Positions 1 to 12,911 of a stretch of DNA of 12,974 nucleotides are shown here, piece after piece. Each line of letters starts with the position of its first letter. Position 1 is the first letter of the stretch. The notes beneath the pieces are model-generated. The model saw only the letters and a program-made list of their open reading frames with translations. It did not search any database and was not told where the DNA came from. A program made the position numbers and the translations under genes. Source of the stretch: an uncultured Dyadobacter sp. (GTDB taxonomy: Bacteria > Bacteroidota > Bacteroidia > Cytophagales > Spirosomataceae); assembly GCA_946481035.1 (NCBI GenBank), contig CAMLNK010000026.1, forward strand, positions 1 through 12,974, read 5' to 3'.

Positions 1-411
1 CTCGGAAAAAACACATTAAGGGACATTTTCGAACTGCGCCTGGTGCTGGAAATGGGCCTAGCCGATCTCATCTACCTCCGCAAAACCCCGGAAGATATCG
101 CAGCGCTGGAAACCATCGTGGCGCAGGAGGTTAACAAGCAGCAGAAGCCCTTCCGCGTAGAACACGAAATCGCTTTCCACGGAAAGCTTTACCAAATGAC
201 CGGCAACGACACCTACATGCGTTTTCAAAAAATGCTGCTGCCGGTTTTCGAATACGTGCTCGACTATGAAATCCAGGTCAACGGCCAGGCGGAAGTCGGT
301 AAGGTAACGCACCACGACCTGGTTGAAATACTCAAAACCGGCGACGCCGAAGATTTCCGCCGTGGTATGAAGGCGCATTTAAAACCGCATTTCGATCGGT
401 TGAAGGCCTGA
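1..411 (+). CDS. GntR-family (FadR subfamily) transcriptional regulator, C-terminal FCD domain, 5'-truncated
   Basis: The reading frame is open from base 1 and ends at TGA 409-411, giving 136 residues of a longer protein whose start and winged-helix DNA-binding domain lie left of the window. What remains is an all-helical FCD ligand-binding domain: an ELRLVLE helix (visible residues 11-17), then E56-x3-H60, H105 and H126. These correspond to the D-x3-H...H...H metal/ligand-binding set of FCD regulators, with Glu in place of the usual Asp. The G-D-A-E-D-F-R-R-G-M-K-A-H stretch (114-126) is typical of the last two helices. FadR-subfamily GntR proteins, which include E. coli NanR, usually bind carboxylic or sugar acids and repress neighbouring catabolic operons. 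Its position directly upstream of a sialic-acid operon on the same strand makes it the likely regulator, but the effector is inferred from context only. Confidence 0.85.
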   Translation, partial: LGKNTLRDIFELRLVLEMGLADLIYLRKTPEDIAALETIVAQEVNKQQKPFRVEHEIAFHGKLYQMTGNDTYMRFQKMLLPVFEYVLDYEIQVNGQAEVGKVTHHDLVEILKTGDAEDFRRGMKAHLKPHFDRLKA

Positions 412-702: not shown

Positions 703-3700
703 ATGAAAAAATTGTACGCGGTGGTCCTGCTGGGCTGTGCATTGCTGCTGCTGGCACCGGTGGTTATGGCGCAGCAACTGACCGTTACCGGGACCGTCAG
801 ATCGGCCGGGACGGGTGAAAGCCTGCCGGGCGTGAGCATTATTCTCGGTGGCACCTCCTCGGGTTCCACCACCGATGCCGATGGGAAGTATACGATCCAG
901 GCGCCCGCCAACGGCCGATTGATTTTCTCTTACGTGGGTTTCGACCCGCAGGAAGCAGCCATCGAAAACCGTTCAAAAATCGATATTACCCTCGCGGAGA
1001 GCGAAAAAGCATTGAGCGAAGTCGTAGTAGTAGGTTACACGAGCCAATCCAAAGCCAAAACGACAGCCGCAGTGTCCAAGCTGGCAACCGAAGAGCTCCG
1101 AAATACCTCCAATCCCAACCCGGTGCAAGCCATGCAAGGCAAAATGGCGGGCGTTTCGGTTCCGGTTAATTCCGGGCAGCCGGGCGCGGGCGCACAGAAT
1201 ATCATCATTCGCGGCGGCACAAAGCTCAACGTTTATGGTACAGGGTTAGGCAATAGCGGCGGCAATTCGGTCGGCTCCTCGGAGTCGAGTGGGCCGCTGG
1301 TGATCGTGGATGGGGTTTTCAGGTCATTGAATGATATCAACCCCGACAATATCGAATCGTTTCAGGTGATGAAGGACGCTGCCGCGACGGCCATTTACGG
1401 CGCCCGCGGTGCCAATGGGGTAATTGTAGTGAAAACCAAAGGAGGGAAATTCAATACCAAAGCCAATATTACCCTCAACCACCGCACTACCTGGGAAACC
1501 AACGCCCGCGACTACAAATACCTGAATGCCAGGGATTACCTCGCGCTGGCCAGAAAAACGGTACAAAGCACTCTTGACCCCATTGATAAAAATAACCTGC
1601 TCAATAACGGCGGCTTCTCGGCCGGAACGCGCATTTACACCGCGCCGGGGCAATATGGTAACAATATTAACCTCACCGCATTATACGACAACATTGTGGC
1701 GGTGGAAGGCCAGGCGTACGTCGACCGGCTGCTCGCCAACGGCTGGGAGACCATGGACGACCCCATTAACCCCGGCACAAAACTGCTTTTTGCCGACAAC
1801 CATTACCAGAACATGCTCTGGAACACGGGCGTGACGCAAAACCACAATCTCTCCATCGACGGCGGCAGCGAACGCGCCAGTTACAATGTATCAGCCGGCT
1901 ATACCAACCAGGCCGGGACATTTGCAGGTACCAGGTACAAGCGCTACGATGTCCTCGGCAATTTCGGTTTCAAAGCGGCCGACAATTTCCGCATCGACGC
2001 CATGGTAAATTACCAGAATGTGCTGCCCAATTATGTGGAGGCATTCCAGAATGAGCTTACGCGCGGCACACGCCTGACCCCGCTCATACGCATATACAAG
2101 GACGATGGCAACCCCATGCCGGGCGAAAACTACGCCACCCGCAACCGGTTCCACACGCTGAAATACGACGACGTGCGGTCGTCTACCGAACGGATCATCT
2201 CACGCGTGGCCGGCGACCTGCTGATAGCCAAAGGTTTGAGTTACAAGCCTGCCGTTTCCTACCTGATGCAGGATTACCGGTATATGTTCATGCGAAAAGG
2301 CACGCCGGCTTCGGAAATCCAGCCTTCGACCCAGCGCCAGAAGAACGAGGATACCAATAACTTCCGGCAGCTGATGATCGACCAGATCCTCCAATACAAC
2401 TTTACCGTACACAGCCTGCACGACTTCACTTTCCTGGCGGGTTTCAATTTTACCAAATCCACCAACAGTATCGTGAATATCGGCTCCCAGCGCGCAACGA
2501 GCGATTACATTTACACGATTAACGAGCCCACCACGTCGGTCATCAACGGGGTAGTGAATACCAATGTCACGGATTTCAGGACTACGCTCACCGAAAGCCG
2601 CTCGGCGAGCTACTTCGGGCAGTTTAATTATGATTACGACGGCAAATACCTGCTCAGCGGCGCGTTGCGTTACGACGGTTTCTCCAATTTTGCCCCACAA
2701 AACAAATATGCACTGTTCCCCTCGGCCTCGCTCGGCTGGAACATCCACCGCGAAAAGTTCTGGAATGTGGCGCCGGTCAGCATGCTCAAATTCCGCGCAA
2801 GCTGGGGCCAGGCCGGTTCGAGCGACCTGAGCCTTACCGACACTTACGGCGGCTATTCGGCGGCGACGTACGCATTGGGGTCCGGCATCTTGCGGGGTAA
2901 CCTCTCGAACCCGAACCTTAAATGGGAGCTCACCGAAACCACCGACCTCGCGCTCGACGCCGCGCTGTTCGGCGACAGGGTTACGTTGTCAGTCGATTTC
3001 TATAACAAACTCACTAAAAACAGGTTGGAATCGAAACCCCTGCCTTCCGAAGCGCCATTTCCCTCCATTACTTACAACAATGGAACCCTGCAAAACAAAG
3101 GCGTGGAAATTGAACTGGGCGCGACGGTGATCAAAGCAGGTGCATTCACCTGGCGTACCAGTTTCTCATTTGCCCTCAACAGGACGATCATCAAAAAGCT
3201 GCCTGACAACGGCCGGGCCAAAAACCGGCAAGGCGGTGACCTCATTTACGACCCCGCCGCAGGCAAAAACGTAGAAGCCGGTGGATTGGCGGAAGGTGAG
3301 CGGCCATTCGGGCTGTACGCCTACAAGGTGCTGGGCGTATTCTCGACCGAAGAAGAGGCGAAGGCCTGGAACGCCACCAAAAAGGACAACCTCGCCTCGC
3401 CGTCGGGCATTACCACCGGCAAGCACGCCGGCGATTTCATCTTCGCCGACCTCAACAACGACGGCGTGATCGACACCAAGGACCAGGTTTTCATGGGTTA
3501 CCGCAACCCCGACAAGATCGGCGGAATGCAAAACACATTCACTTACAAATCGTTATCGCTCCGCGTGGCGGTCGACTATGCGCTAGGGCACATGATCAGC
3601 AACGGTGCGCTGGCCCGCTCGCTCGGTACCGGACGGGCGTTTAACGAAGGGGCTCCTTCGCAGGCCCTGGGACCGGATATCTGGCAAAAATCCGGAGACA

Positions 3701-4047
3701 CCGGCAAGAAATACGCCCGTTTCTCATTCGCGGACGCCGATTTCGGTCAGCGCAACTACCTGCGCTCGGCGACATTGGGCAACAATAATGGCTATGGTTC
3801 CGACGTGTCGGCGATGATCGAAAAAGGCAATTTCCTGGCCCTGCGCGAGATTTCGCTTGCCTATGATTTGCCCAAAAACGTGCTCAAAAAGATCCGTTCG
3901 ACGGGAATGAATGTATTCGTCAGCGTGTACAACCTCGGCTACCTGACCCAATACAAAGGCATTAACCCGGAAACCTACACCGGCTTCGACGCCGTGGGCT
4001 ACCCGCGCCCGCGCCAGTTTTCGGTCGGCACGACGCTGAGATTTTAG
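703..4047 (+). CDS. SusC/RagA-family TonB-dependent outer-membrane transporter, probably for sialic acid or sialylated glycans
   Basis: The 1114-residue protein has a signal peptide (1-23, cleavage after VMA). A carboxypeptidase-D regulatory-like domain follows (about 26-100), then a TonB-box-like LSEVVVVGY and a plug domain containing IIIRGG (167-172), PLVIVDG (198-204) and AAATAIYGARGANGVIVVKT (226-245), all standard SusC signatures. The rest is a 22-strand-type beta barrel with the family motif DLNNDGVID-x2-D (916-927), ending in the aromatic strand FSVGTTLRF. There is no N-terminal STN domain, so it is not the kind that signals directly to a FecR/ECF pair. With SusD it forms the energised TonB-dependent import complex. 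The neighbouring sialidase, mutarotase-symporter and lyase suggest that it imports sialic acid or sialylated oligosaccharide; the exact substrate is inferred from context. Confidence 0.95.
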   Translation: MKKLYAVVLLGCALLLLAPVVMAQQLTVTGTVRSAGTGESLPGVSIILGGTSSGSTTDADGKYTIQAPANGRLIFSYVGFDPQEAAIENRSKIDITLAESEKALSEVVVVGYTSQSKAKTTAAVSKLATEELRNTSNPNPVQAMQGKMAGVSVPVNSGQPGAGAQNIIIRGGTKLNVYGTGLGNSGGNSVGSSESSGPLVIVDGVFRSLNDINPDNIESFQVMKDAAATAIYGARGANGVIVVKTKGGKFNTKANITLNHRTTWETNARDYKYLNARDYLALARKTVQSTLDPIDKNNLLNNGGFSAGTRIYTAPGQYGNNINLTALYDNIVAVEGQAYVDRLLANGWETMDDPINPGTKLLFADNHYQNMLWNTGVTQNHNLSIDGGSERASYNVSAGYTNQAGTFAGTRYKRYDVLGNFGFKAADNFRIDAMVNYQNVLPNYVEAFQNELTRGTRLTPLIRIYKDDGNPMPGENYATRNRFHTLKYDDVRSSTERIISRVAGDLLIAKGLSYKPAVSYLMQDYRYMFMRKGTPASEIQPSTQRQKNEDTNNFRQLMIDQILQYNFTVHSLHDFTFLAGFNFTKSTNSIVNIGSQRATSDYIYTINEPTTSVINGVVNTNVTDFRTTLTESRSASYFGQFNYDYDGKYLLSGALRYDGFSNFAPQNKYALFPSASLGWNIHREKFWNVAPVSMLKFRASWGQAGSSDLSLTDTYGGYSAATYALGSGILRGNLSNPNLKWELTETTDLALDAALFGDRVTLSVDFYNKLTKNRLESKPLPSEAPFPSITYNNGTLQNKGVEIELGATVIKAGAFTWRTSFSFALNRTIIKKLPDNGRAKNRQGGDLIYDPAAGKNVEAGGLAEGERPFGLYAYKVLGVFSTEEEAKAWNATKKDNLASPSGITTGKHAGDFIFADLNNDGVIDTKDQVFMGYRNPDKIGGMQNTFTYKSLSLRVAVDYALGHMISNGALARSLGTGRAFNEGAPSQALGPDIWQKSGDTGKKYARFSFADADFGQRNYLRSATLGNNNGYGSDVSAMIEKGNFLALREISLAYDLPKNVLKKIRSTGMNVFVSVYNLGYLTQYKGINPETYTGFDAVGYPRPRQFSVGTTLRF

Positions 4048-4060: not shown

Positions 4061-4148
4061 GACGGCCGACCGCTGACAGCCGACAGCCGTATAGCGACGG
4101 ATTGGTTAACATCAAAATCGGCGGTCGGTGGTCAGCCGTCGGCGGTCA
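4060..4148. repeat. Large imperfect inverted repeat filling the susC-susD gap
   Basis: The arm at 4060-4089 is complementary to the arm at 4119-4148 at 25 of 30 positions, around a 29-nt loop. Both arms are built from GC-rich GCCGAC/GCTGAC-like words and look like a dispersed palindromic element rather than unique sequence. In RNA it would fold as a long stem-loop between the SusC and SusD reading frames. Such structures can cause partial termination, stabilise the upstream mRNA, or mark a mobile REP-like repeat. The sequence alone does not decide between these. Confidence 0.65.
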
Positions 4149-4172
4149 AAAACAAAAAACGACAACTCAATT

Positions 4173-5645
4173 ATGAACCCAAGAATTAAATTCCTCATCC
4201 TAACCGCTTTTGCTCTCACAAGCCTTAGTGCCTGCGACAGCTTGCTGGATGTGAAGCCGCAGTCGAGCATTACCGAGGCGGTTTATTTTCAGAATGAAGG
4301 CGATTTTGAACCCTACCTGACCGGGATTTATACCTATATGCGGACTTTTGCCAACAATGTAACGTACGGTACCGAGCGCAGCGAAGAGCTGATCGCCGGC
4401 TCCAATTCGCGTTTCGGCGTGGCATGGTCGCAGATCATCACGCCTACGTCCGGGGCGATCAATTACAACGACTGGTACAAGGCCATCGGGCATTGCAACC
4501 TGCTGCTGGCGAAGATCGAAAGCTTTCCGTTCGCCGGTAATCCCGATCTCAAAAAGCGCATTCTGGCCGAAACTTATAGCTTACGGGCCTATTTTTACTT
4601 TCACCTGACGCGCATTATCGGCGACGCGCCCCTGATGCTGCAAGCCGTGACGGACGAAAATGTGCCGCTCCTGCCGCGCTCCCCGGCGGTTGAAGTAATG
4701 AAGCAGGTGCGTGCCGACCTCGACCAGGCGATCGGCTTGTACAAGTCACTGGGCAATTTCTCCGCCACCTCCTACCCGAGCAAATACCGCTTTGCATACG
4801 CTTCCACGCAGGCGCTCAAAGCCGAGGCCGGCTTGTGGAGCGCCAAAGTGCTGGGCGGCGGCGATGCGGATTTCAATGCGGCCGTCGCGGCCATTTCCGA
4901 AGTCGAGGCGTCGGGCGTTTCGCTGAATGCCGATTTTAAAAATGTAACCGGGCTGCGGGCGCCCAACAATCCGGAAGTGATCCTGTCGGCCTATTTCAGC
5001 CGGGACGAAACGGGCGGGAACTACGGCGTGAATGCATTGCCGTTCCTGACGATCGTGCAGGGCGCGGTAAACCTCGACAGCCTGCCTTACACCCAAACTT
5101 CCACCACCGGCCAGGGCGCTTACCAGATCAGCCAGCCGTCGCGGGCATTATTTAGCAAAAGCACCACCGACAAGCGTATTCCATACACCTGGGTTACCGA
5201 ACGGCAAACCTCCGGTCCAAAAATCTCCTGGATTACCAAATACCCCGGCACCAGATATTCCGACGACCGCATTTCCGACAATGAAGTGATCATTTTCCGC
5301 CTCGCCGACATTTATTTGATGAAGGCCGAAGCATTTGCTGCCCTTGGTAAGGTGGAAGAATCCATTGCCTACCTCGACAAAGTTCGCACACGGGCGGGCA
5401 CAGGCGCTTACGCGGGAGCGAAAACCAAACCGGCCGTGGAGCGCGAAATCCTCGACGAGCGCGGCCGTGAGCTGTTTTTCGAGAACAAACGCTGGTACGA
5501 CCTCGTGCGGTTTCACAAAGGCGGCACCATCGATGTGTACAAGTTTGTACCGAATCTAACAGGTAAGAAAACACCGCTCTTCTGGCCGCTGAATACGACG
5601 GTACTCGCCAACAATAACCAGCTGGTGCAAACAGAGGGCTACTAA
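4173..5645 (+). CDS. SusD/RagB-family surface glycan-binding lipoprotein
   Basis: This 490-residue protein begins with a lipoprotein signal peptide whose lipobox is L18-S19-A20-C21, so Cys21 should be lipidated and the mature protein anchored in the outer membrane. I chose the ATG at 4173 because it gives an ideal lipoprotein signal; the in-frame GTG at 4128 would put a charged tail in front of it and lies inside the intergenic repeat. SusD features include DSLLDVKPQSSITEAVYF after the lipobox, the helix LRAYFYFHLTRIIGDAPLML (137-156), the TPR-like helices at 371-409 (EVIIFRLADIYLMKAEAF) and the C-terminal signature ERGRELFFENKRWYDLVR (429-446). It caps the SusC barrel and captures ligand. 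It is the second gene of the sialic-acid operon, 125 bp behind susC. Confidence 0.94.
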   Translation: MNPRIKFLILTAFALTSLSACDSLLDVKPQSSITEAVYFQNEGDFEPYLTGIYTYMRTFANNVTYGTERSEELIAGSNSRFGVAWSQIITPTSGAINYNDWYKAIGHCNLLLAKIESFPFAGNPDLKKRILAETYSLRAYFYFHLTRIIGDAPLMLQAVTDENVPLLPRSPAVEVMKQVRADLDQAIGLYKSLGNFSATSYPSKYRFAYASTQALKAEAGLWSAKVLGGGDADFNAAVAAISEVEASGVSLNADFKNVTGLRAPNNPEVILSAYFSRDETGGNYGVNALPFLTIVQGAVNLDSLPYTQTSTTGQGAYQISQPSRALFSKSTTDKRIPYTWVTERQTSGPKISWITKYPGTRYSDDRISDNEVIIFRLADIYLMKAEAFAALGKVEESIAYLDKVRTRAGTGAYAGAKTKPAVEREILDERGRELFFENKRWYDLVRFHKGGTIDVYKFVPNLTGKKTPLFWPLNTTVLANNNQLVQTEGY

Positions 5646-5682: not shown

Positions 5683-6834
5683 ATGATAAAAAAGACATTG
5701 CTGATTCTGATCTTCCTGGGCGCCACTAGGGCATTTTCGCAGGACATTCCCGAAACCCGCGCATTGTTCAGCGCAGGTGAGAATGGGTACAAAAGCTACC
5801 GCATCCCATCACTCATTAAAGCCAAAAATGGCGCATTGATCGCTTTTTGTGAAGGCCGGAAAGACGGCGCGGGTGACGCGGGCGATATTGACCTGCTTAT
5901 GAAACGCTCCACGGACAATGGCAAAACCTGGGGACCGCAAACGGTCGTCTGGGACGATGGCACCAACACCTGCGGCAATCCCTGCCCGGTACTCGACGAA
6001 CAAACCGGCGAAATTCTCCTGTTGCTGACCCAAAATCGCGGCGACGTTCCTGAAAAGGACATTATCACCAAAAAATCCGAGTCGACCCGGACGGTATGGC
6101 TCTCCCGCAGCGCCGACCACGGTGCTACCTGGGCCAAACCGGTTGAAATAACCCAAACTACCAAGAAACCCGACTGGGGCTGGTACGCAACCGGCCCGGG
6201 TGTTGGCATACAAATCAAAAACGGTCCGCGCAAAGGCCGCCTGGTGATCCCCTGCGATTTCAGCTACGACGACCCGAACGGCAAGGTCCGCAACGGCCCG
6301 TTTGAATACGGCGCGCACGCCATTTACAGCGACGATCATGGCAAAACGTGGCAGCTCGGCGGGACCATCACGCCCAAAATGAATGAATGCCAGGTGGTGG
6401 AAATGGCCGACGGGAACGGCACATTACTCATGAATATGCGCTCCTATTTTGGCCACGGTCGGCGGGCGCAGTCGCTGAGTTACGACGGTGGCGTGAGCTG
6501 GACGGCCCCCGAAGACATTCCCGAACTTGTAGAACCGGTGTGCCAGGCGTCCATTATCCGGTACCAGCGCCCCAAAGGAACCGGCGCAATGCTTTTTCTA
6601 AACCCCGCCAGCACCACCAAACGCCATAACCTCACATTACGGGCCAGTTTCGACGAAGGAAAAACCTGGCCGGTGATCCGTACCATTTTCCCCGGACCAT
6701 CGGCCTATTCGAGCATGGCTGCATTACCCGACGGTAATATACTGTGCCTTTACGAGGCGGGCAAAACCGGCGCTTATGAGCAGATCGTGCTGCAAACCAT
6801 CACCCCGCAATGGCTGTTCGGGGACCGCAAATAG
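5683..6834 (+). CDS. nanH: Exo-alpha-sialidase (GH33-type, BNR/Asp-box protein)
   Basis: This 383-residue exported enzyme should hydrolyse terminal alpha-ketosidic sialic acids from glycoconjugates. A signal peptide (1-19, cleavage after AFS) is followed by a single six-bladed propeller-sized domain. It has the YRIP motif (39-42, first triad Arg R40) and five Asp boxes: STDNGKTW 76-83, SADHGATW 143-150, SDDHGKTW 216-223, SYDGGVSW 266-273 and SFDEGKTW 322-329. Candidate catalytic residues, by order and spacing against known bacterial sialidases, are D65 (acid/base), E235 with nucleophile Y342, Arg triad R40/R253/R314, and E358 positioning R40. This full set argues for a true sialidase rather than a degenerate BNR protein. 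No lectin or carbohydrate-binding domain is present. The gene lies 37 bp after susD and 25 bp before the lyase gene. An intramolecular trans-sialidase activity cannot be excluded. Confidence 0.9.
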   Translation: MIKKTLLILIFLGATRAFSQDIPETRALFSAGENGYKSYRIPSLIKAKNGALIAFCEGRKDGAGDAGDIDLLMKRSTDNGKTWGPQTVVWDDGTNTCGNPCPVLDEQTGEILLLLTQNRGDVPEKDIITKKSESTRTVWLSRSADHGATWAKPVEITQTTKKPDWGWYATGPGVGIQIKNGPRKGRLVIPCDFSYDDPNGKVRNGPFEYGAHAIYSDDHGKTWQLGGTITPKMNECQVVEMADGNGTLLMNMRSYFGHGRRAQSLSYDGGVSWTAPEDIPELVEPVCQASIIRYQRPKGTGAMLFLNPASTTKRHNLTLRASFDEGKTWPVIRTIFPGPSAYSSMAALPDGNILCLYEAGKTGAYEQIVLQTITPQWLFGDRK

Positions 6835-6859: not shown

Positions 6860-7810
6860 ATGAATACCATCCAACACACCGACGGCCTCATTGCCGCGCT
6901 TTTCACTCCCTTACATCCCGACGGCTCGGTGCATTACGAGCTGTTGCCCGCATTGGTCGAGCATTTGATCAATACCGGAGTTTCGGGCATCTTCATTTGC
7001 GGCAGCAACGGCGAAGGGCCCAATCTGACGCTCGAAGAACGCATGCAGGTTTCCGAAACCGTGATCAACGCCGGCAAAGGTCGCATGCGCATGATCGTAC
7101 ACGTAGGGCACGCGAGCATCGCGGAGGCGCGCAAGCTGGCGCGTCACGCACAGGAGGCGGATGCCGACGCTATTTCGTCCGTCGCGGCATTCTATTTCAA
7201 ACCTACTTCCGTGCAAAATCTCGCCGATTGCATGACCGACATTGCCGCTGGCGCACCGGAGTTGCCTTTCTATTATTACCACATTCCCTCGCTAACGGGC
7301 TTTTCGGTCGACGTCCTCGATTTCATGCGCATTGCCGAAAAGCAGATCCCGAACTTTGCGGGCGTAAAATACACCGCGGCGACGCTTTGGGAATACCAGG
7401 AATGCCTGCATTACGATAGCGGCAAATATGATGTATTGTATGGTTTTGACGAAAACCACCTGCCTGCATTGTCGATGGGCGCCAAAGGGTGCATCGGGAG
7501 TACTTTCAACTTCGCCGCACCATTCTATTTAAAGGTAAGGGAGTATTTCGAAGCGGGCGAAATCGATAAGGCGCGTAAACAAATGCTTTTCTGCGTCGAA
7601 ATGGTACGGATCGTGGTGCAATACGCACCGATTCCCGCCCAGAAAGCCGTCATGAAAATGCTCGGTTTCGATATGGGTCCCTGCCGCCTGCCCCTCGTGG
7701 CCCTACCCGACGATCAGTACGAGGCATTGCACCGCCAATTGAGCGAAATCGGCTTTTTTGAAAAATCGCAAACCGGCGAAGCCATCGAAACAATTCATGA
7801 CAATTCCTGA
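6860..7810 (+). CDS. nanA: N-acetylneuraminate lyase (DHDPS/NAL superfamily aldolase)
   Basis: This 316-residue cytoplasmic TIM-barrel aldolase is predicted to cleave N-acetylneuraminate to N-acetylmannosamine and pyruvate through a Schiff base. The pyruvate-carboxylate-binding loop reads GSNGE (48-52; GSTGE in E. coli). The proton-relay tyrosine is Y140 in YYYHIP (Tyr137 in E. coli), and the Schiff-base lysine is K170 in FAGVKYT (Lys165 in E. coli). No signal peptide is visible, and the length is close to that of family members (about 300 residues) with a short C-terminal tail. Family members also include dihydrodipicolinate synthase and other 2-keto-acid aldolases. The sialidase upstream and the mutarotase-symporter 14 bp downstream make sialate lyase by far the best reading. 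Confidence 0.92.
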   Translation: MNTIQHTDGLIAALFTPLHPDGSVHYELLPALVEHLINTGVSGIFICGSNGEGPNLTLEERMQVSETVINAGKGRMRMIVHVGHASIAEARKLARHAQEADADAISSVAAFYFKPTSVQNLADCMTDIAAGAPELPFYYYHIPSLTGFSVDVLDFMRIAEKQIPNFAGVKYTAATLWEYQECLHYDSGKYDVLYGFDENHLPALSMGAKGCIGSTFNFAAPFYLKVREYFEAGEIDKARKQMLFCVEMVRIVVQYAPIPAQKAVMKMLGFDMGPCRLPLVALPDDQYEALHRQLSEIGFFEKSQTGEAIETIHDNS

Positions 7811-7824
7811 CAACGCTTGACCCA

Positions 7825-10359
7825 ATGACCCGCTTCCTTTTCTTCCTGACCATTTTCCTGCAAACTATGATTTCCAATGCCCAGCAGCCGGGGCCTTCGC
7901 CCCTGCAATGGAAAAGCCTGCCGCCGCTACCCGACGAGGTCGGATTTGCCGGTGCCTATGCGGGCGTGAGCAACAATGCGCTGATTGTCGGCGGCGGTGC
8001 CAACTTTCCGGGTAATGCCGGGCCATGGGGTACCGCGCCCAAAACCTGGTATGACGACATTTTTGTGCTGGAAAATCCGTCGGGAAGCTGGAAGAAAGCG
8101 GGTATACTGCCACGTGCTATGGGCTACGGCGTTTCGCTCACGACGCCCGAAGGCGTTTTCTGCCTCGGAGGCGCCGACGGTACGCAGCATTACAACCAGG
8201 CATTTTTCCTGAATTGGAAAGACGGCCGCATTACCACCACCCCACTCCCGGCACTGCCCGTTCCGCTTGCTTATGCTTCCGGCGCATTGCTGGGCAATAA
8301 AATATATGTAGCAGGCGGCACCAGCGCCCCTTCCGACACCAATGCGCTGAGCCGTTTCTGGGAATTTGATTTACATAAAAAACAATGGAACGAACTCCCG
8401 CCCATCCCCGGAAATGGCCGCATGCTGGCCGTGGCAGGTGCGCCGGGCGCCGGTGCGCAGGATGGCCGTTTTTTCCTGTTCAGCGGGGTTGAGCTGCACC
8501 CAAATGCCGCCACCGGCGCCACGCAGCGCACTTATTTGAAAGAATGCCTCTCCTATAACCCGGCCACCAAAACCTGGAAGCGTATTGCCGACCTGCCCAA
8601 CGCGGTAGCGGCGGCGCCTTCACCTGCGTATGCGGCCGGACAGTCGCACCTGCTCGTGGTGGGTGGCGACGACGGCGCCAATGCGCAGCGGGTAATGGAG
8701 CTCAGAGAAAAACATCCCGGTTTCCGCAGCGAAATCATGGCCTACCAGAGCATTACCGACACCTGGGCGTCGCTGGGGGTATTTTCGGAAGGGAAAACGG
8801 CGGTTACCACGCCACTCGTAACCTGGAACGGGCAACTGGTAATCCCGTCGGGCGAGGTGCAGCCGGGTATCCGCTCACCGCGCGTGGCGGCGGGCAGTCC
8901 GGTGGTGAGTACCGGCACATTCAACGGAGTCGATTGGGGGGTGGTGTCGGTTTATTTCCTGTTGGTACTGGGCATCAGCATTTACGTTTCGCGTAAAATG
9001 AGCGCCAGCACCGATGATTTTTTCCTCGGCGGCCAGAATATCCCCTGGTGGGCGGCCGGGTTGAGCATTTTCGGGAGCAAGCTCAGCGCGCTCACGTTCA
9101 TCGCCATTCCCGCCAAAACTTACGCCACCGACTGGGTTTATATTTTTGCCAATGCGATGATCGTGGTGGTGGCGCCGATCGTGATCTGGTTTTTCCTGCC
9201 CTATTTCCGCAAACTGAAAATCACAAGCGTTTATGAATACCTCGCATTCCGGTTCAACAAAACCGTCAAACTGGTGGGCAGCTTCACATTTGTTGTTTTT
9301 CAGGTCGGCAGATTGGGGATCGTGATCTACCTTCCTGCATTGGTACTGAGCACCGTCACCGGCATGAACCTCATGCTTTGCATTATCCTCACCAGCCTCA
9401 TTACGACGGCCTACACCATTTCCGGCGGGATCGAAGCTGTCGTCTGGACGGAAGTGATGCAGGTCGGGGTGCTGCTGGGCGGGGCATTTCTCAGTTTGTT
9501 TTTCATTGCCAATGCTTCCGGCGGCTTCGGTTCGCTATTCGATCAGGCAGGCGATGCGGGCAAGTTCCATATGATCAACAGCGGCTGGGCCATTACCGAG
9601 CCGGTGCTATGGGTGGTTTTGGTAGGTAATTTTTTAACCCAAATCGTGACCTACACCTCCGATCAGGTGGTAGTGCAGCGGTATCTCACCACGCCTACCG
9701 AGGCCGAAGCACGCCGATCGATCTGGACTAATGCATTCCTGGTCATCCCGGCTACATTAATATTCTTCCTTGTCGGGACCGCATTATGGGTGTATTTCAA
9801 ACAAGAGCCTCAGCTCCTGAACCCGATGGCCCGGAACGACGACATTTTCCCCTGGTTTATCTCGACGCAACTACCCGCAGGCTTGCGCGGATTGGTCATA
9901 GCAGGTCTTTTCGCCGCTACGATGTCTACCATCAGCTCTTCCATGAACTCGATTGCTACCGTGGTTACTACCGATTTTTTCCAGCATTTTGTCCCAAAAT
10001 CCACCGACCTGCAACGTTTCCGCTTTGCACGTTACACCACACTCGCATTGGGCGCGGCGGGGATCGGCATTGCCGTGTGGCTGGTTTTTATGGAAAACAA
10101 CAGTATCTGGGACCAGTACCTGAAACTGATCGGGATATTCGGCGGCTGCCTGGCGGGCATGTTCGTGGCGGGGATATTTGTCCCTTCGATCAACAGTACG
10201 GGCATTCTCGCCGGGTTTTTCATCAGCGCGGTACTATTGTATTTCGTGCAGGCCAATGGCTGGGTGCATTTCTTCCTCTATCCCGGCGTCGGGATCTTCG
10301 GATGCGTGATCTTCGGGTGGCTGGTGAGTAGGGCGGTACCCGAGGCACGGCCTTCATGA
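7825..10359 (+). CDS. Fusion of a circularly permuted sialate mutarotase (Kelch, NanM-like) with a sodium/solute symporter (SSS family)
   Basis: This 844-residue protein has a signal peptide (1-20, SNA|QQ), then a Kelch beta-propeller (about 25-355), then an SSS-family transporter (about 371-840) with 13 hydrophobic helices by eye. Propeller strands include GFAGAYAG (40-47), RAMGYGVSL (97-105), NKIYVAGG (158-165) and HLLVVGGDDG (275-284). Compared with my memory of E. coli NanM, the blades that are C-terminal there come first here, so the domain is circularly permuted. GEVQPGIR (343-350) matches the NanM GEAKPGLR active-site loop, giving E344 and R350. In the symporter, A698-x2-S701-T702-x-S704-S705 in the eighth core helix fits the Na2/Na3 sodium ligands of sialic-acid symporters, and R496 is a candidate sialate-carboxylate ligand. 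SSS proteins have an outward-facing N-terminus, so the mutarotase would hang in the periplasm and feed the transporter. It is the last gene of the operon. Confidence 0.9.
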   Translation: MTRFLFFLTIFLQTMISNAQQPGPSPLQWKSLPPLPDEVGFAGAYAGVSNNALIVGGGANFPGNAGPWGTAPKTWYDDIFVLENPSGSWKKAGILPRAMGYGVSLTTPEGVFCLGGADGTQHYNQAFFLNWKDGRITTTPLPALPVPLAYASGALLGNKIYVAGGTSAPSDTNALSRFWEFDLHKKQWNELPPIPGNGRMLAVAGAPGAGAQDGRFFLFSGVELHPNAATGATQRTYLKECLSYNPATKTWKRIADLPNAVAAAPSPAYAAGQSHLLVVGGDDGANAQRVMELREKHPGFRSEIMAYQSITDTWASLGVFSEGKTAVTTPLVTWNGQLVIPSGEVQPGIRSPRVAAGSPVVSTGTFNGVDWGVVSVYFLLVLGISIYVSRKMSASTDDFFLGGQNIPWWAAGLSIFGSKLSALTFIAIPAKTYATDWVYIFANAMIVVVAPIVIWFFLPYFRKLKITSVYEYLAFRFNKTVKLVGSFTFVVFQVGRLGIVIYLPALVLSTVTGMNLMLCIILTSLITTAYTISGGIEAVVWTEVMQVGVLLGGAFLSLFFIANASGGFGSLFDQAGDAGKFHMINSGWAITEPVLWVVLVGNFLTQIVTYTSDQVVVQRYLTTPTEAEARRSIWTNAFLVIPATLIFFLVGTALWVYFKQEPQLLNPMARNDDIFPWFISTQLPAGLRGLVIAGLFAATMSTISSSMNSIATVVTTDFFQHFVPKSTDLQRFRFARYTTLALGAAGIGIAVWLVFMENNSIWDQYLKLIGIFGGCLAGMFVAGIFVPSINSTGILAGFFISAVLLYFVQANGWVHFFLYPGVGIFGCVIFGWLVSRAVPEARPS

Positions 10360-10376
10360 CATAATTCTTTGAAATG

Positions 10377-11699
10377 CTAGACCCGCGGCATTTTATAACC
10401 GTTGTGGTATTCGTTACCGATCAGCTTGTTGGCGGCTGCATGATCGAACTCGCCTTTTTGCGCATTCCAATGGAGCGTGCTTCCCGTTCGGTAAGCGATA
10501 TTACCCATTTGCGAAAGGATAGCCACCTCCGCGCCTACACGTATGGGCGCGTGCAGGTCGCCCATGCGCCGCGATCGGATCACTTCCACGAAGTTTCTGG
10601 CATGTTCATCGAGGCCATTGTCGGACGACGCCTGCAATGGTACGGCCTGCATGCGTTTTTCGTAAGGTACCACCTCCCAGCCCTGGCGGTCGACGATCAA
10701 TGTACCGTTCTCGCCCAGGAATGCAATGCCGTGCTGGCGGTTGTAAATACCTGCGCCGTAGCCGATCACGTGCTCCCATTGGATATTAAAATCGTCGTAC
10801 TCAAAAAGTGCCGTTAATGTGTCGGGCGTTTCCGCGCCGGGGTTACGCAGCATGGAACCGCTGGCGCTCACCCGCTTCGGAACACCGGCGGCGGCGGCGG
10901 GCGCTTTCATGCCAAGCAATGCGTAATCGAGCAAATGCACGCCCCAGTCGGTCATGATGCCGCCCGCATAATCCCAAAACCAGCGGAACGAGCCGTGAAA
11001 ACGGTTGGGGTTGAACGGCCGTTTGCTAGCCGGGCCCAGCCACATATCATAATCCACGCCAGCCGGAACAGCGCTGTCGGGATGTTTTAAAATGGGGTTA
11101 CCATAATTAAAATACCCCCAAACTTTTACCAGCCCCACCTTCCCGAGCTTCCCCGAATGCACAAAATCGACCGCGTCGCGGAAATGCTTCTGGCTGCGCT
11201 GCCATTGCCCCACCTGCACCACCCGGTTGTACTTCTCCTGCGCCGCTACCATCGCCCTGCATTCGGCAATGGAATTACCGATCGGCTTTTCCACATATAC
11301 ATCCTTGCCGGATTCACAGGCCTCGGCCATCATCAGGCAATGCCAGTGGTCGGGCGTGCCGATCACCACGGCATCGATATCCTTGTTGTCCAAAACCCTG
11401 CGGTAATCTCCGAAAGTCCGGACCTTTATGCCTTTCGCGGCCAGCTCGGCGGCGCGCTTATCAAGCACATTGCGGTCGGCATCACAGAGCGCAACGCATT
11501 CCACCCCGGGGTTTTTCATCACCGCATTGACGTCCGCCCACCCCATACTATTGATCCCGATCGCCGCGACGCGGATCTTGTCTGCGGCGGAACGCACAAA
11601 CCGGCTTGCATGCGCAAAGTTGCTGATAACGGGTGAAATAGCAGCGCCACCGGCGGCAGCCGCAGCGGTATGGATGAATTTTCTTCTGGAAATAGTCAT
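10377..11699 (-). CDS. Gfo/Idh/MocA-family NAD(P)-dependent oxidoreductase with a Tat signal
   Basis: This 440-residue protein starts with a twin-arginine signal (S4-R5-R6-K7-F8-I9, then an Ala/Gly-rich hydrophobic stretch to about residue 32), so it is probably exported folded with its cofactor. The Rossmann domain begins IRVAAIGINSMG (42-53) and contains TPDHWH (115-120) and the catalytic-lysine motif EKP (137-139, K138). The C-terminal domain holds GGIMTDWGVHLLD (246-258) with D251, H255 and D258, the usual catalytic Asp/His region. It ends with EYHNGYK, a tail typical of the secreted Bacteroidota subgroup. Members oxidise or reduce sugars and cyclitols; the substrate here is unknown. EKP is intact, whereas GH109 glycosidases of the same fold have a different sequence there. 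It converges on the sialic-acid operon with 17 bp between stops, so it is not co-transcribed with it. Confidence 0.9.
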   Translation of the reverse strand: MTISRRKFIHTAAAAAGGAAISPVISNFAHASRFVRSAADKIRVAAIGINSMGWADVNAVMKNPGVECVALCDADRNVLDKRAAELAAKGIKVRTFGDYRRVLDNKDIDAVVIGTPDHWHCLMMAEACESGKDVYVEKPIGNSIAECRAMVAAQEKYNRVVQVGQWQRSQKHFRDAVDFVHSGKLGKVGLVKVWGYFNYGNPILKHPDSAVPAGVDYDMWLGPASKRPFNPNRFHGSFRWFWDYAGGIMTDWGVHLLDYALLGMKAPAAAAGVPKRVSASGSMLRNPGAETPDTLTALFEYDDFNIQWEHVIGYGAGIYNRQHGIAFLGENGTLIVDRQGWEVVPYEKRMQAVPLQASSDNGLDEHARNFVEVIRSRRMGDLHAPIRVGAEVAILSQMGNIAYRTGSTLHWNAQKGEFDHAAANKLIGNEYHNGYKMPRV

Positions 11700-12039: not shown

Positions 12040-12588
12040 ATGAACATCAAATCTCTACCGGACCAACACCTCGTCGAAGCCCTCCGGGACGATGACGGCC
12101 TGGCGTTCCGGGAGATTTACCAGCGCTACTGGAAAAAAATGTACCTGCTCGCGCTCCGCAAGATCGACGACCGCGAAGCCGTTGAAAGCATTGTCCAGGA
12201 TGTTTTCCTCCGGTTATGGGAGCGCCGCAGCCTTTTGCAGATCGACAACCTCGAAGCCTACCTTGTCACGTCGGTGAAATACACCTGCATCAACCATTTC
12301 AAATCGGCCATGGTGCATGAAAAATACCTTACTCACGCATTCACCGGCTACTCCGATACGACTTACACGACCGAAGAGCAGCTCAACGCCAGCGAGTTAA
12401 TGAGCAGCATTGAAGCCCGTCTAAGTCATTTCCCTGAAAAAGCCCAGACCATTTTCCGCCTCCACCGCCTCGAGAACCGCTCCACCAAAGAAATCGCCAC
12501 CCAAATCCAAATGCCCCAACGAACCGTAGAGCACCATTTGAGCCTTGTGGTGAAGGCGCTGCGGTCGTATTTGAAGGATTATTTGTGA
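12040..12588 (+). CDS. ECF RNA polymerase sigma factor, FecI-like (Bacteroidetes expansion type)
   Basis: This 182-residue protein has sigma-70 region 2 at about 10-88 (AFREIYQRYWKKMYLLALR, then EAVESIVQDVFLRLWERR with the core-binding and -10-recognition helices) and region 4 at about 128-182. Its helix-turn-helix is STKEIATQIQMPQRTVEHHL (148-167). The length is normal for ECF factors. I chose the ATG at 12040 because it starts immediately before the conserved region-2 helix; an in-frame GTG at 11956 would add 28 residues with no family resemblance. Such factors are held by a membrane anti-sigma (FecR) encoded next to them and released by a TonB-dependent receptor with an STN domain. The partner gene begins at 12921. 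The SusC protein in this window lacks an STN domain, so the target regulon is probably to the right of the window. Confidence 0.9.
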   Translation: MNIKSLPDQHLVEALRDDDGLAFREIYQRYWKKMYLLALRKIDDREAVESIVQDVFLRLWERRSLLQIDNLEAYLVTSVKYTCINHFKSAMVHEKYLTHAFTGYSDTTYTTEEQLNASELMSSIEARLSHFPEKAQTIFRLHRLENRSTKEIATQIQMPQRTVEHHLSLVVKALRSYLKDYL

Positions 12589-12786
12589 AAAAGGGAGGAA
12601 GGAGGAAAGGAGGAAAGGGAGGATGGAGGATGGGGAATTTCCCCTGTAAACAGGTTGCCCCTCCCGAGCCCTGCCAGATGATTATTACAAACCTAGTTTC
12701 TCCCATTTTCCTTCCCTTCCTCCCCCTCCTCCCTTCCTCCCCTTCCTCCCTCTCCTCCCCTTCCTCCCTTTCCTCCCTTCCTCCCC
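12587..12786. repeat. Polypurine tract and complementary 81-nt polypyrimidine tract (imperfect inverted, G-quadruplex-prone repeat)
   Basis: An uninterrupted purine run (12587-12623, continuing purine-rich to 12637) begins within the sigma-gene stop codon. An uninterrupted pyrimidine run covers 12706-12786 and is made of degenerate CCTTCCTCCC-like units. The two are complementary over long stretches; for example GGAGGAAAGGGAGGA (12609-12623) pairs perfectly with TCCTCCCTTTCCTCC (12762-12776). The minus strand of the pyrimidine run has nine runs of three or more G with loops of seven or fewer, a tandem G-quadruplex pattern. The tract could form a foldback RNA, H-DNA or quadruplexes. Reading frames through it give only low-complexity protein and are not genes. 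Confidence 0.8.
12632..12654. repeat. Two adjoining small palindromes in the sigma-antisigma gap
   Basis: GGGGAATTTCCCC (12632-12644) is a 6-bp palindrome around a central T. It overlaps CCTGT-AA-ACAGG (12643-12654), a 5-bp palindrome with a 2-nt centre. They stand between the purine and pyrimidine tracts and are near the tip of the large foldback. Either could be a protein-binding site; nothing identifies the protein. Confidence 0.45.
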
Positions 12787-12881
12787 ATTGCACAAAAGCC
12801 AGAACTTTCACCTCCAAGCGCCCTAAAAACATAACTTATCCAATAATATTTAAAAAGTTTTGCGGATCATGGCACTGGCGT

Positions 12882-12911
12882 TTGACTACTCACTAAAAAG
12901 CAAGTAGTCAA
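12882..12911 (+). repeat. 9-bp inverted repeat just upstream of the FecR-like start
   Basis: TTGACTACT (12882-12890) is the exact reverse complement of AGTAGTCAA (12903-12911), with a 12-nt A-rich loop. It ends 9 bp before the ATG at 12921. As RNA it would place a stem next to the initiation region, and as DNA it could be an operator. Confidence 0.5.

Follow-up and report, generated by a model that had tools for sequence, protein, structure and literature searches.

The fused gene

The DNA analysed here, referred to as the window, is a stretch of 12,974 nucleotides from an uncultured Dyadobacter sp. (contig CAMLNK010000026.1), and our subject is a single open reading frame (ORF) of 844 amino acids on its plus strand (7825..10359), in which a signal peptide, a permuted mutarotase propeller and a SiaT-like symporter of the sodium:solute symporter (SSS) family follow one another. 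The original prediction for this DNA had placed a Kelch domain and an SSS transporter in one gene, and both families were found above their Pfam cut-offs: PF24996 NANM scored 127 bits against a gathering cut-off of 45 and PF00474 SSF 151.2 bits against 22.8; the NCBIfam SSS superfamily model TIGR00813 covered residues 399–800 with 251.4 bits (cut-off 184). With 251 bits for SSS, 127 bits for NANM and relatives that match over nearly their full length, the fusion is far from chance.

Read by eye, residues 1–20 (MTRFLFFLTIFLQTMISNAQ, 7825..7884) form a putative signal peptide, where the predicted structure has a helix at 2–16. The Kelch propeller occupies residues 27–359 (7903..8901) according to Pfam, sequence alignment and the model, and its catalytic loop GEVQPGIR, expected at residues 343–350 (8851..8874), is present there in both the sequence and the model. 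A short linker (residues 360–367, 8902..8925; predicted model and alignment) leads into the symporter, which extends over residues 368–838 (8926..10338; profiles and model). The helix list of the model was read as 13 membrane helices, the number originally proposed, although the first of them, TM0, lies at 368–391 and does not begin at residue 373 as had been stated. The structure of the full 844-residue protein was predicted confidently as a single chain.

The counts given below for fused loci rest on the best 80 of 583 confirmed loci from a genome scan, and residue comparisons on 81 proteins (the query and the 80 loci, with L014 trimmed to 900 residues). All 80 loci gave near-full-length matches, and 79 of them hold both domains in one open frame; L043 (10001–12595) is the sole locus with a broken fused frame. 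The gap between R350 and D370 measures 19 residues in 65 of the 81 proteins (range 16–20). Distances among propellers and among symporters are correlated (r 0.73 for 79 proteins, without L014 and L043; at most 0.09 in 500 permutations), as would be expected if the two domains had long been inherited together. A separate symporter might in principle be started from in-frame GTG codons (residues 354, 360 and 361), and one may ask whether the fusion is an accident of annotation or assembly, or whether the cell produces its halves as two proteins. We regard this as very improbable in view of the single open frame retained across phyla, the near-constant linker, the confident single-chain model and the correlated domain distances. 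The fusion is genuine and widespread.

Circular permutation of the propeller

The closest solved relative of the propeller by sequence is E. coli YjhT/NanM (59 bits; runner-up 55). The Pfam NANM match already places query residues 22–136 on the C-terminal part of the profile (222–348), and in direct alignment NanM 228–348 pairs with query 26–139 and NanM 3–107 with query 141–259. A profile built from fused propellers likewise matched E. coli K-12 NanM in two pieces of swapped order (88.9 and 74.2 bits), whereas the same profile rotated after residue 140 gave a single match across NanM 3–348 with 174.3 bits. Fourteen alternative cut points yielded 78.9 to 170.3 bits, declining to either side of 140. 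As one rotation suffices to bring the domain into the order of NanM, the permutation is real, and the propeller is circularly permuted relative to NanM, as had been suggested. The preserved spacing of the Glu/Arg pair was also borne out: GEVQPGIR aligns with NanM GEAKPGLR (mature residues 208–215), and E344 and R350, six residues apart, fall on E209 and R215 in mature numbering. Severi et al. are said to have described the roles of NanM E209 and R215 in catalysis in 2008.

Domain searches thus passed the NANM and SSS cut-offs, but not that of the permuted-mutarotase model TIGR03548. Here query residues 39–354 are collinear with 2–322 of 323 model positions, sharing the blade order of that family, yet the score remained below the curated cut-off (136.6 versus 243.2 bits). 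The same cut-off was failed by all ten further relatives tested (seven fused, three unfused). We therefore describe the propeller as a relative of this model and not as a formal member. From E. coli NanM (PDB 2uvk), with which it shares the propeller family and the Glu/Arg pair, it differs by the rotated blade order. The partner transporter of NanM is NanT, which belongs to the MFS. NanT is described in passages of PMC3658417 as a proton symporter, and NanM itself in passages of PMC10017367 as a soluble periplasmic homodimer, in contrast to the membrane-fused propeller of the window.

The symporter half

By sequence, the closest solved relative of the symporter is the Proteus sialate symporter SiaT with 331 bits (runner-up 185), and SiaT also heads the tables that Foldseek and VIA gave for the full model. 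NanM (2uvk) is not among the 50 rows listed in these tables, which carries no weight against kinship with NanM, a relation we judged by the sequence rotation test. Proteus mirabilis SiaT (5nv9, 5nva) is about 36% identical to the symporter half and shares its fold, its carboxylate ligands and most sodium-site residues, but has no propeller. The carboxylate ligands Ser60, Thr63 and Arg135 of SiaT are present as S421, T424 and R496, and their equivalents are kept in 81, 80 and 81 of the 81 proteins, respectively. Two of them lie with K419 (SiaT T58) in the TM1 substrate stretch (9079..9096); R496, the counterpart of the arginine that forms a salt bridge to the sialate carboxylate, is encoded at 9310..9312. 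Residues of the Na2/Na3 sites, A698, S701, T702, S704 and S705, are kept or conservatively replaced, the last four forming a stretch (9925..9939) that corresponds to SiaT S342, S343, S345 and S346, but Asp182 of SiaT is replaced by Glu543.

Gene neighbourhood

The fusion closes a row of genes on the plus strand of the window, in the order NanR-like regulator (partial), SusC, NanU-like SusD, GH33-type sialidase, NanA-like lyase, fusion. The row begins with the C-terminal part of an FCD/GntR regulator (1..411), for which NanR is the nearest model (49 bits, below the cut-off of 260), followed by a SusC/RagA TonB-linked outer-membrane transporter (703..4047) and a SusD-family lipoprotein (4128..5645) with NanU as nearest model (190 bits, below the cut-off of 425). 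The sialidase carries BNR repeats (5683..6834; best PDB match the bacterial sialidase 1w8n, 170.2 bits). The N-acetylneuraminate lyase (6860..7810) ends 14 bases before the fusion; its best PDB match is the putative N-acetylneuraminate lyase 6h4e (226.8 bits), and it does not reach the cut-offs set for lyase models in NCBIfam. Both the sialate pathway and a periplasmic location of the propeller are supported. Passages of PMC12893687 report that Neu5Ac raises permuted mutarotase genes, among others, in Parabacteroides. AGE epimerase (PF07221) was sought in seven genomes, and in the Dyadobacter genome G001 the listed matches all lay off the fusion contig.

Convergent with the fusion lies a Gfo/Idh/MocA oxidoreductase on the minus strand (10377–11699) with an N-terminus that looks twin-arginine-like by eye and glycoside 3-dehydrogenase as nearest model, the cut-off of which was not reached. 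Further downstream, directly after an ECF sigma factor gene, 12585–12896 contains low-complexity repeats with an SSPSSLSS-like frame on the plus and a REEGEE-like frame on the minus strand.

Distribution of fused and unfused propellers

The hosts of the 80 loci belong to Bacteroidota, Balneolota, Planctomycetota, Verrucomicrobiota, Kiritimatiellota, Acidobacteriota, KSB1, Hydrogenedentota and Omnitrophota, with phyla taken from record titles and taxonomic ranks checked for sampled rows. PF24996 and PF00474 occur together in all of the 120 protein matches listed out of 2187, according to a precomputed domain column. Two Dyadobacter genomes (L078, L080) carry a divergent fusion type that is only 37–39% identical to the fusion of the window. 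A further set, A2, comprised 58 of the 80 loci, the window and 16 listed proteins. Many of the stretches around the loci are short, 47 of 80 being at least 20 kb long. A SusC frame was found in 25 of the 80; within 200 bases and on the same strand as the fusion, measured between open frames and not start codons, a NanA-family frame is present in 40 of 80 loci, a sialidase in 8 and SusC in none.

Of the 296 Bacteroidota genomes drawn, 16 contained related propellers at E up to 1e-35, with 17 matches, of which 13 were fused and 4 unfused; among 199 drawn Planctomycetota genomes the same threshold gave 15 genomes with 18 matches, of which 16 were fused and 2 unfused. Together 29 of 35 were fused, a number that includes two centre genomes picked for carrying the fusion (27 of 33 without them), and since a fused propeller served as query these counts favour its kin. 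With the unfused query P0236 at E up to 1e-25 we obtained 23 matches in 21 of 395 Bacteroidota genomes, 15 in frames of 843–919 residues, 6 in frames of 360–425 and 2 in longer ones. A tree of 79 propellers combined 30 from the 80 loci, 33 from the 35 drawn loci (without L082 and L099, which duplicate the genes L001 and L028), 14 from a list of 120 related proteins, the query and NanM. It requires at least eight changes between the fused and unfused state, of which well-supported branches force only four to five; given the quick method and the distant outgroup, gain and loss are not distinguishable in it.

Ten unfused loci were examined, eight from Bacteroidota (L117–L120, L123–L125, L128) and two from Planctomycetota (L121, L122); weaker unfused Kelch matches lie outside this set. 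All eight Bacteroidota loci have both an MFS transporter and a NanA-family frame in their stretch, and in L117–L120 and L125 the MFS gene adjoins the mutarotase. The MFS profile was built from L117–L120, leaving L123, L124, L125 and L128 as independent loci, and all four match it. By comparison, at E up to 1e-20 the profile matched in none of the 80 fused loci, 47 of which have stretches of at least 20 kb. Two observations count against such a division: the unfused Planctomycetota loci L121 and L122 gave neither a NanA nor an MFS match, and among the loci with esterase-fused propellers an MFS match was seen only in L127, not in L126 (7 kb) or L129. The genomes of L123 and L128 also hold an SSS fusion elsewhere (L078 and L050), so that both forms can be used within a single genome. 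The N-terminus is periplasmic in SSS proteins and cytoplasmic in MFS proteins; a mutarotase attached there to an MFS transporter could thus not stay periplasmic. This would explain why the mutarotase is fused to SSS and separate from MFS transporters, although the pattern does not prove a topology rule, and transporter topology may determine which importer can carry a mutarotase.

Longer chains

Among 120 listed matches to the sialidase part of P0120, 17 combine NANM, SSF and a sialidase in one chain, with Flavitalea sp. BT771 (gene L014) and Puia sp. among the hosts. Such three-domain chains were noted in L014 (9980–13612), P0093, P0120, P0241–P0246, P0250, P0251, P0255, P0256, P0261, P0279, P0283, P0289 and P0304. 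With P0304 excluded, in all 16 junctions viewed the last symporter helix is separated from the sialidase by a hydrophobic stretch that ends in A-Q. From its sequence this stretch looks like the old signal peptide of the sialidase; the C-terminal sialidase would then be periplasmic and might be cut free. The predicted structure of P0120 was set aside (pLDDT 42, pTM 0.34, 17 close sequences). In other chains the permuted propeller follows GDSL and SASA esterase domains (L126, 183–3329, minus strand; L129, 3883–7122, plus strand) or GH20 and SASA domains (L127, 2497–7125, plus strand), and these chains may likewise unite several periplasmic sialate-processing steps in one polypeptide. As a tentative and rather doubtful combined proposal, topology sets the architecture, with N-out SSS transporters fused and MFS transporters separate, and some Chitinophagaceae chains add a sialidase as a possibly cut polyprotein. 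If true, a single polypeptide would release sialate, switch its anomer and import it, with possible cleavage at the internal signal peptide.

Proposed mechanism

Sialidases of the GH33 type release alpha-sialate. We consider it probable that the fusion serves as the inner-membrane step of a sialic acid operon, in which tethered mutarotation feeds beta-sialate to a sodium-driven symporter. The GH33-type sialidase would free alpha-sialate; the NanM-type permuted propeller, kept on the periplasmic side through its fusion to the N-out first symporter helix, would accelerate the change to the beta form, which the SiaT-like part would import together with sodium; and NanA would cleave the imported sialate inside the cell. 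The domain families, the permutation, the conserved catalytic and carboxylate residues, the near-constant linker, the operon and the covarying domain distances are all observed. Mutarotase activity, a preference for the beta form and a gain from tethering, in the form of a high local concentration at the importer, are what we infer from them. Direct channelling to the transporter is not claimed: the predicted strand order, read with the topology of Kelch propellers, suggests that the chain exits from the side of the propeller that faces away from the E344/R350 loop, which argues against head-on delivery.

Several observations weigh against this mechanism. The growth rate of an E. coli nanM mutant falls by at most 20% according to passages of PMC3658417, so that the gain from a mutarotase may be small; these passages also state that NanA requires the alpha form. 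Close unfused relatives of the fused propeller occur, and the fusion is hence not essential. A NanA-family frame was found in only 48 and a sialidase in 34 of the 80 loci, many stretches being short. One fused relative, L040 (3086–5578), has lost both catalytic propeller residues. Finally, Thr58, Gln82, Asn247 and Gln250 of SiaT are Lys, Asn, Gln and Thr in the fusion, which is why we call the symporter SiaT-like and not SiaT, and the substrate or anomer may differ; over the 81 proteins the Thr58 position is Q in 28, M in 22, K in 18, A in 4, L in 3, S in 3 and V, T and G in one each, Thr thus occurring just once.

These changed contacts, with K, Q and M as the commonest residues in place of Thr58, could mean that the substrate of the unit as a whole is another 2-keto-3-deoxy sugar acid, such as a nonulosonate that is not Neu5Ac, either in this fusion or in some members of the family, and many hosts are metagenome-assembled genomes of Planctomycetota and Verrucomicrobiota. 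We consider this unlikely, as in the window the fusion is accompanied by a GH33-type sialidase, a NanA-like lyase and a NanU-like SusD. Moreover, in the available text on SiaT, which binds beta-Neu5Ac, Thr58 touches the anomeric hydroxyl (C2-OH) through a contact that can be made by the backbone, and is the least conserved ligand.

It is similarly improbable, if anything slightly more so, that the propeller is no longer an enzyme and serves the symporter as a sialate-binding or gating module. The short tether of near-constant length and the relative L040 would fit such a role, but 80 of the 81 proteins retain E344 and as many retain R350, needlessly for pure binding, and unfused relatives occur in sialate loci beside other transporters. 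The retention of the catalytic Glu and Arg also disfavours the earlier suggestion that the propeller replaces a separate binding protein. Tethered mutarotation accordingly remains our preferred reading.

Relation to known systems and significance

That the architecture might already be catalogued had been anticipated. The available text of the genome paper PMC5561996 names the same kind of epimerase/sialate symporter fusion in another bacterium, so that the architecture is already known. The likeness is drawn here from the description given there: a single inner-membrane protein joins these two families, and its locus also encodes SusC/SusD, N-acetylneuraminate lyase and an epimerase. The window, with both domains in one chain within a sialate locus, fits this type. 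The description is a genome annotation, and its available text is silent on permutation, residues and distribution. The available parts of the reviews PMC10017367, PMC7918813 and PMC3658417, and of PMC8754123, PMC6254351 and PMC2693436, do not mention the fusion, and full-text literature searches, confined to one collection, found no functional study of it. The gene is thus a real, conserved and already named architecture in a new host, for which the permutation and the sialate assignment are well supported. New here is that unfused permuted mutarotases stand with MFS transporters in 8 of 8 Bacteroidota loci examined, as against none of the 80 fused loci.

The benefit of a periplasmic mutarotase for uptake is hard to test with NanM, which in passages of PMC3658417 appears as free and nearly dispensable in E. 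coli. The natural fusion offers a clean experiment in one chain, in which the symporter is kept and E344/R350 are removed. L040 is a natural test of a non-enzymatic role of the propeller, and the SSS-fused versus MFS-separate pattern, together with the sialidase–mutarotase–symporter chains, provides natural comparisons. Proteins labelled merely as sodium:solute symporters could in this way gain a likely substrate.
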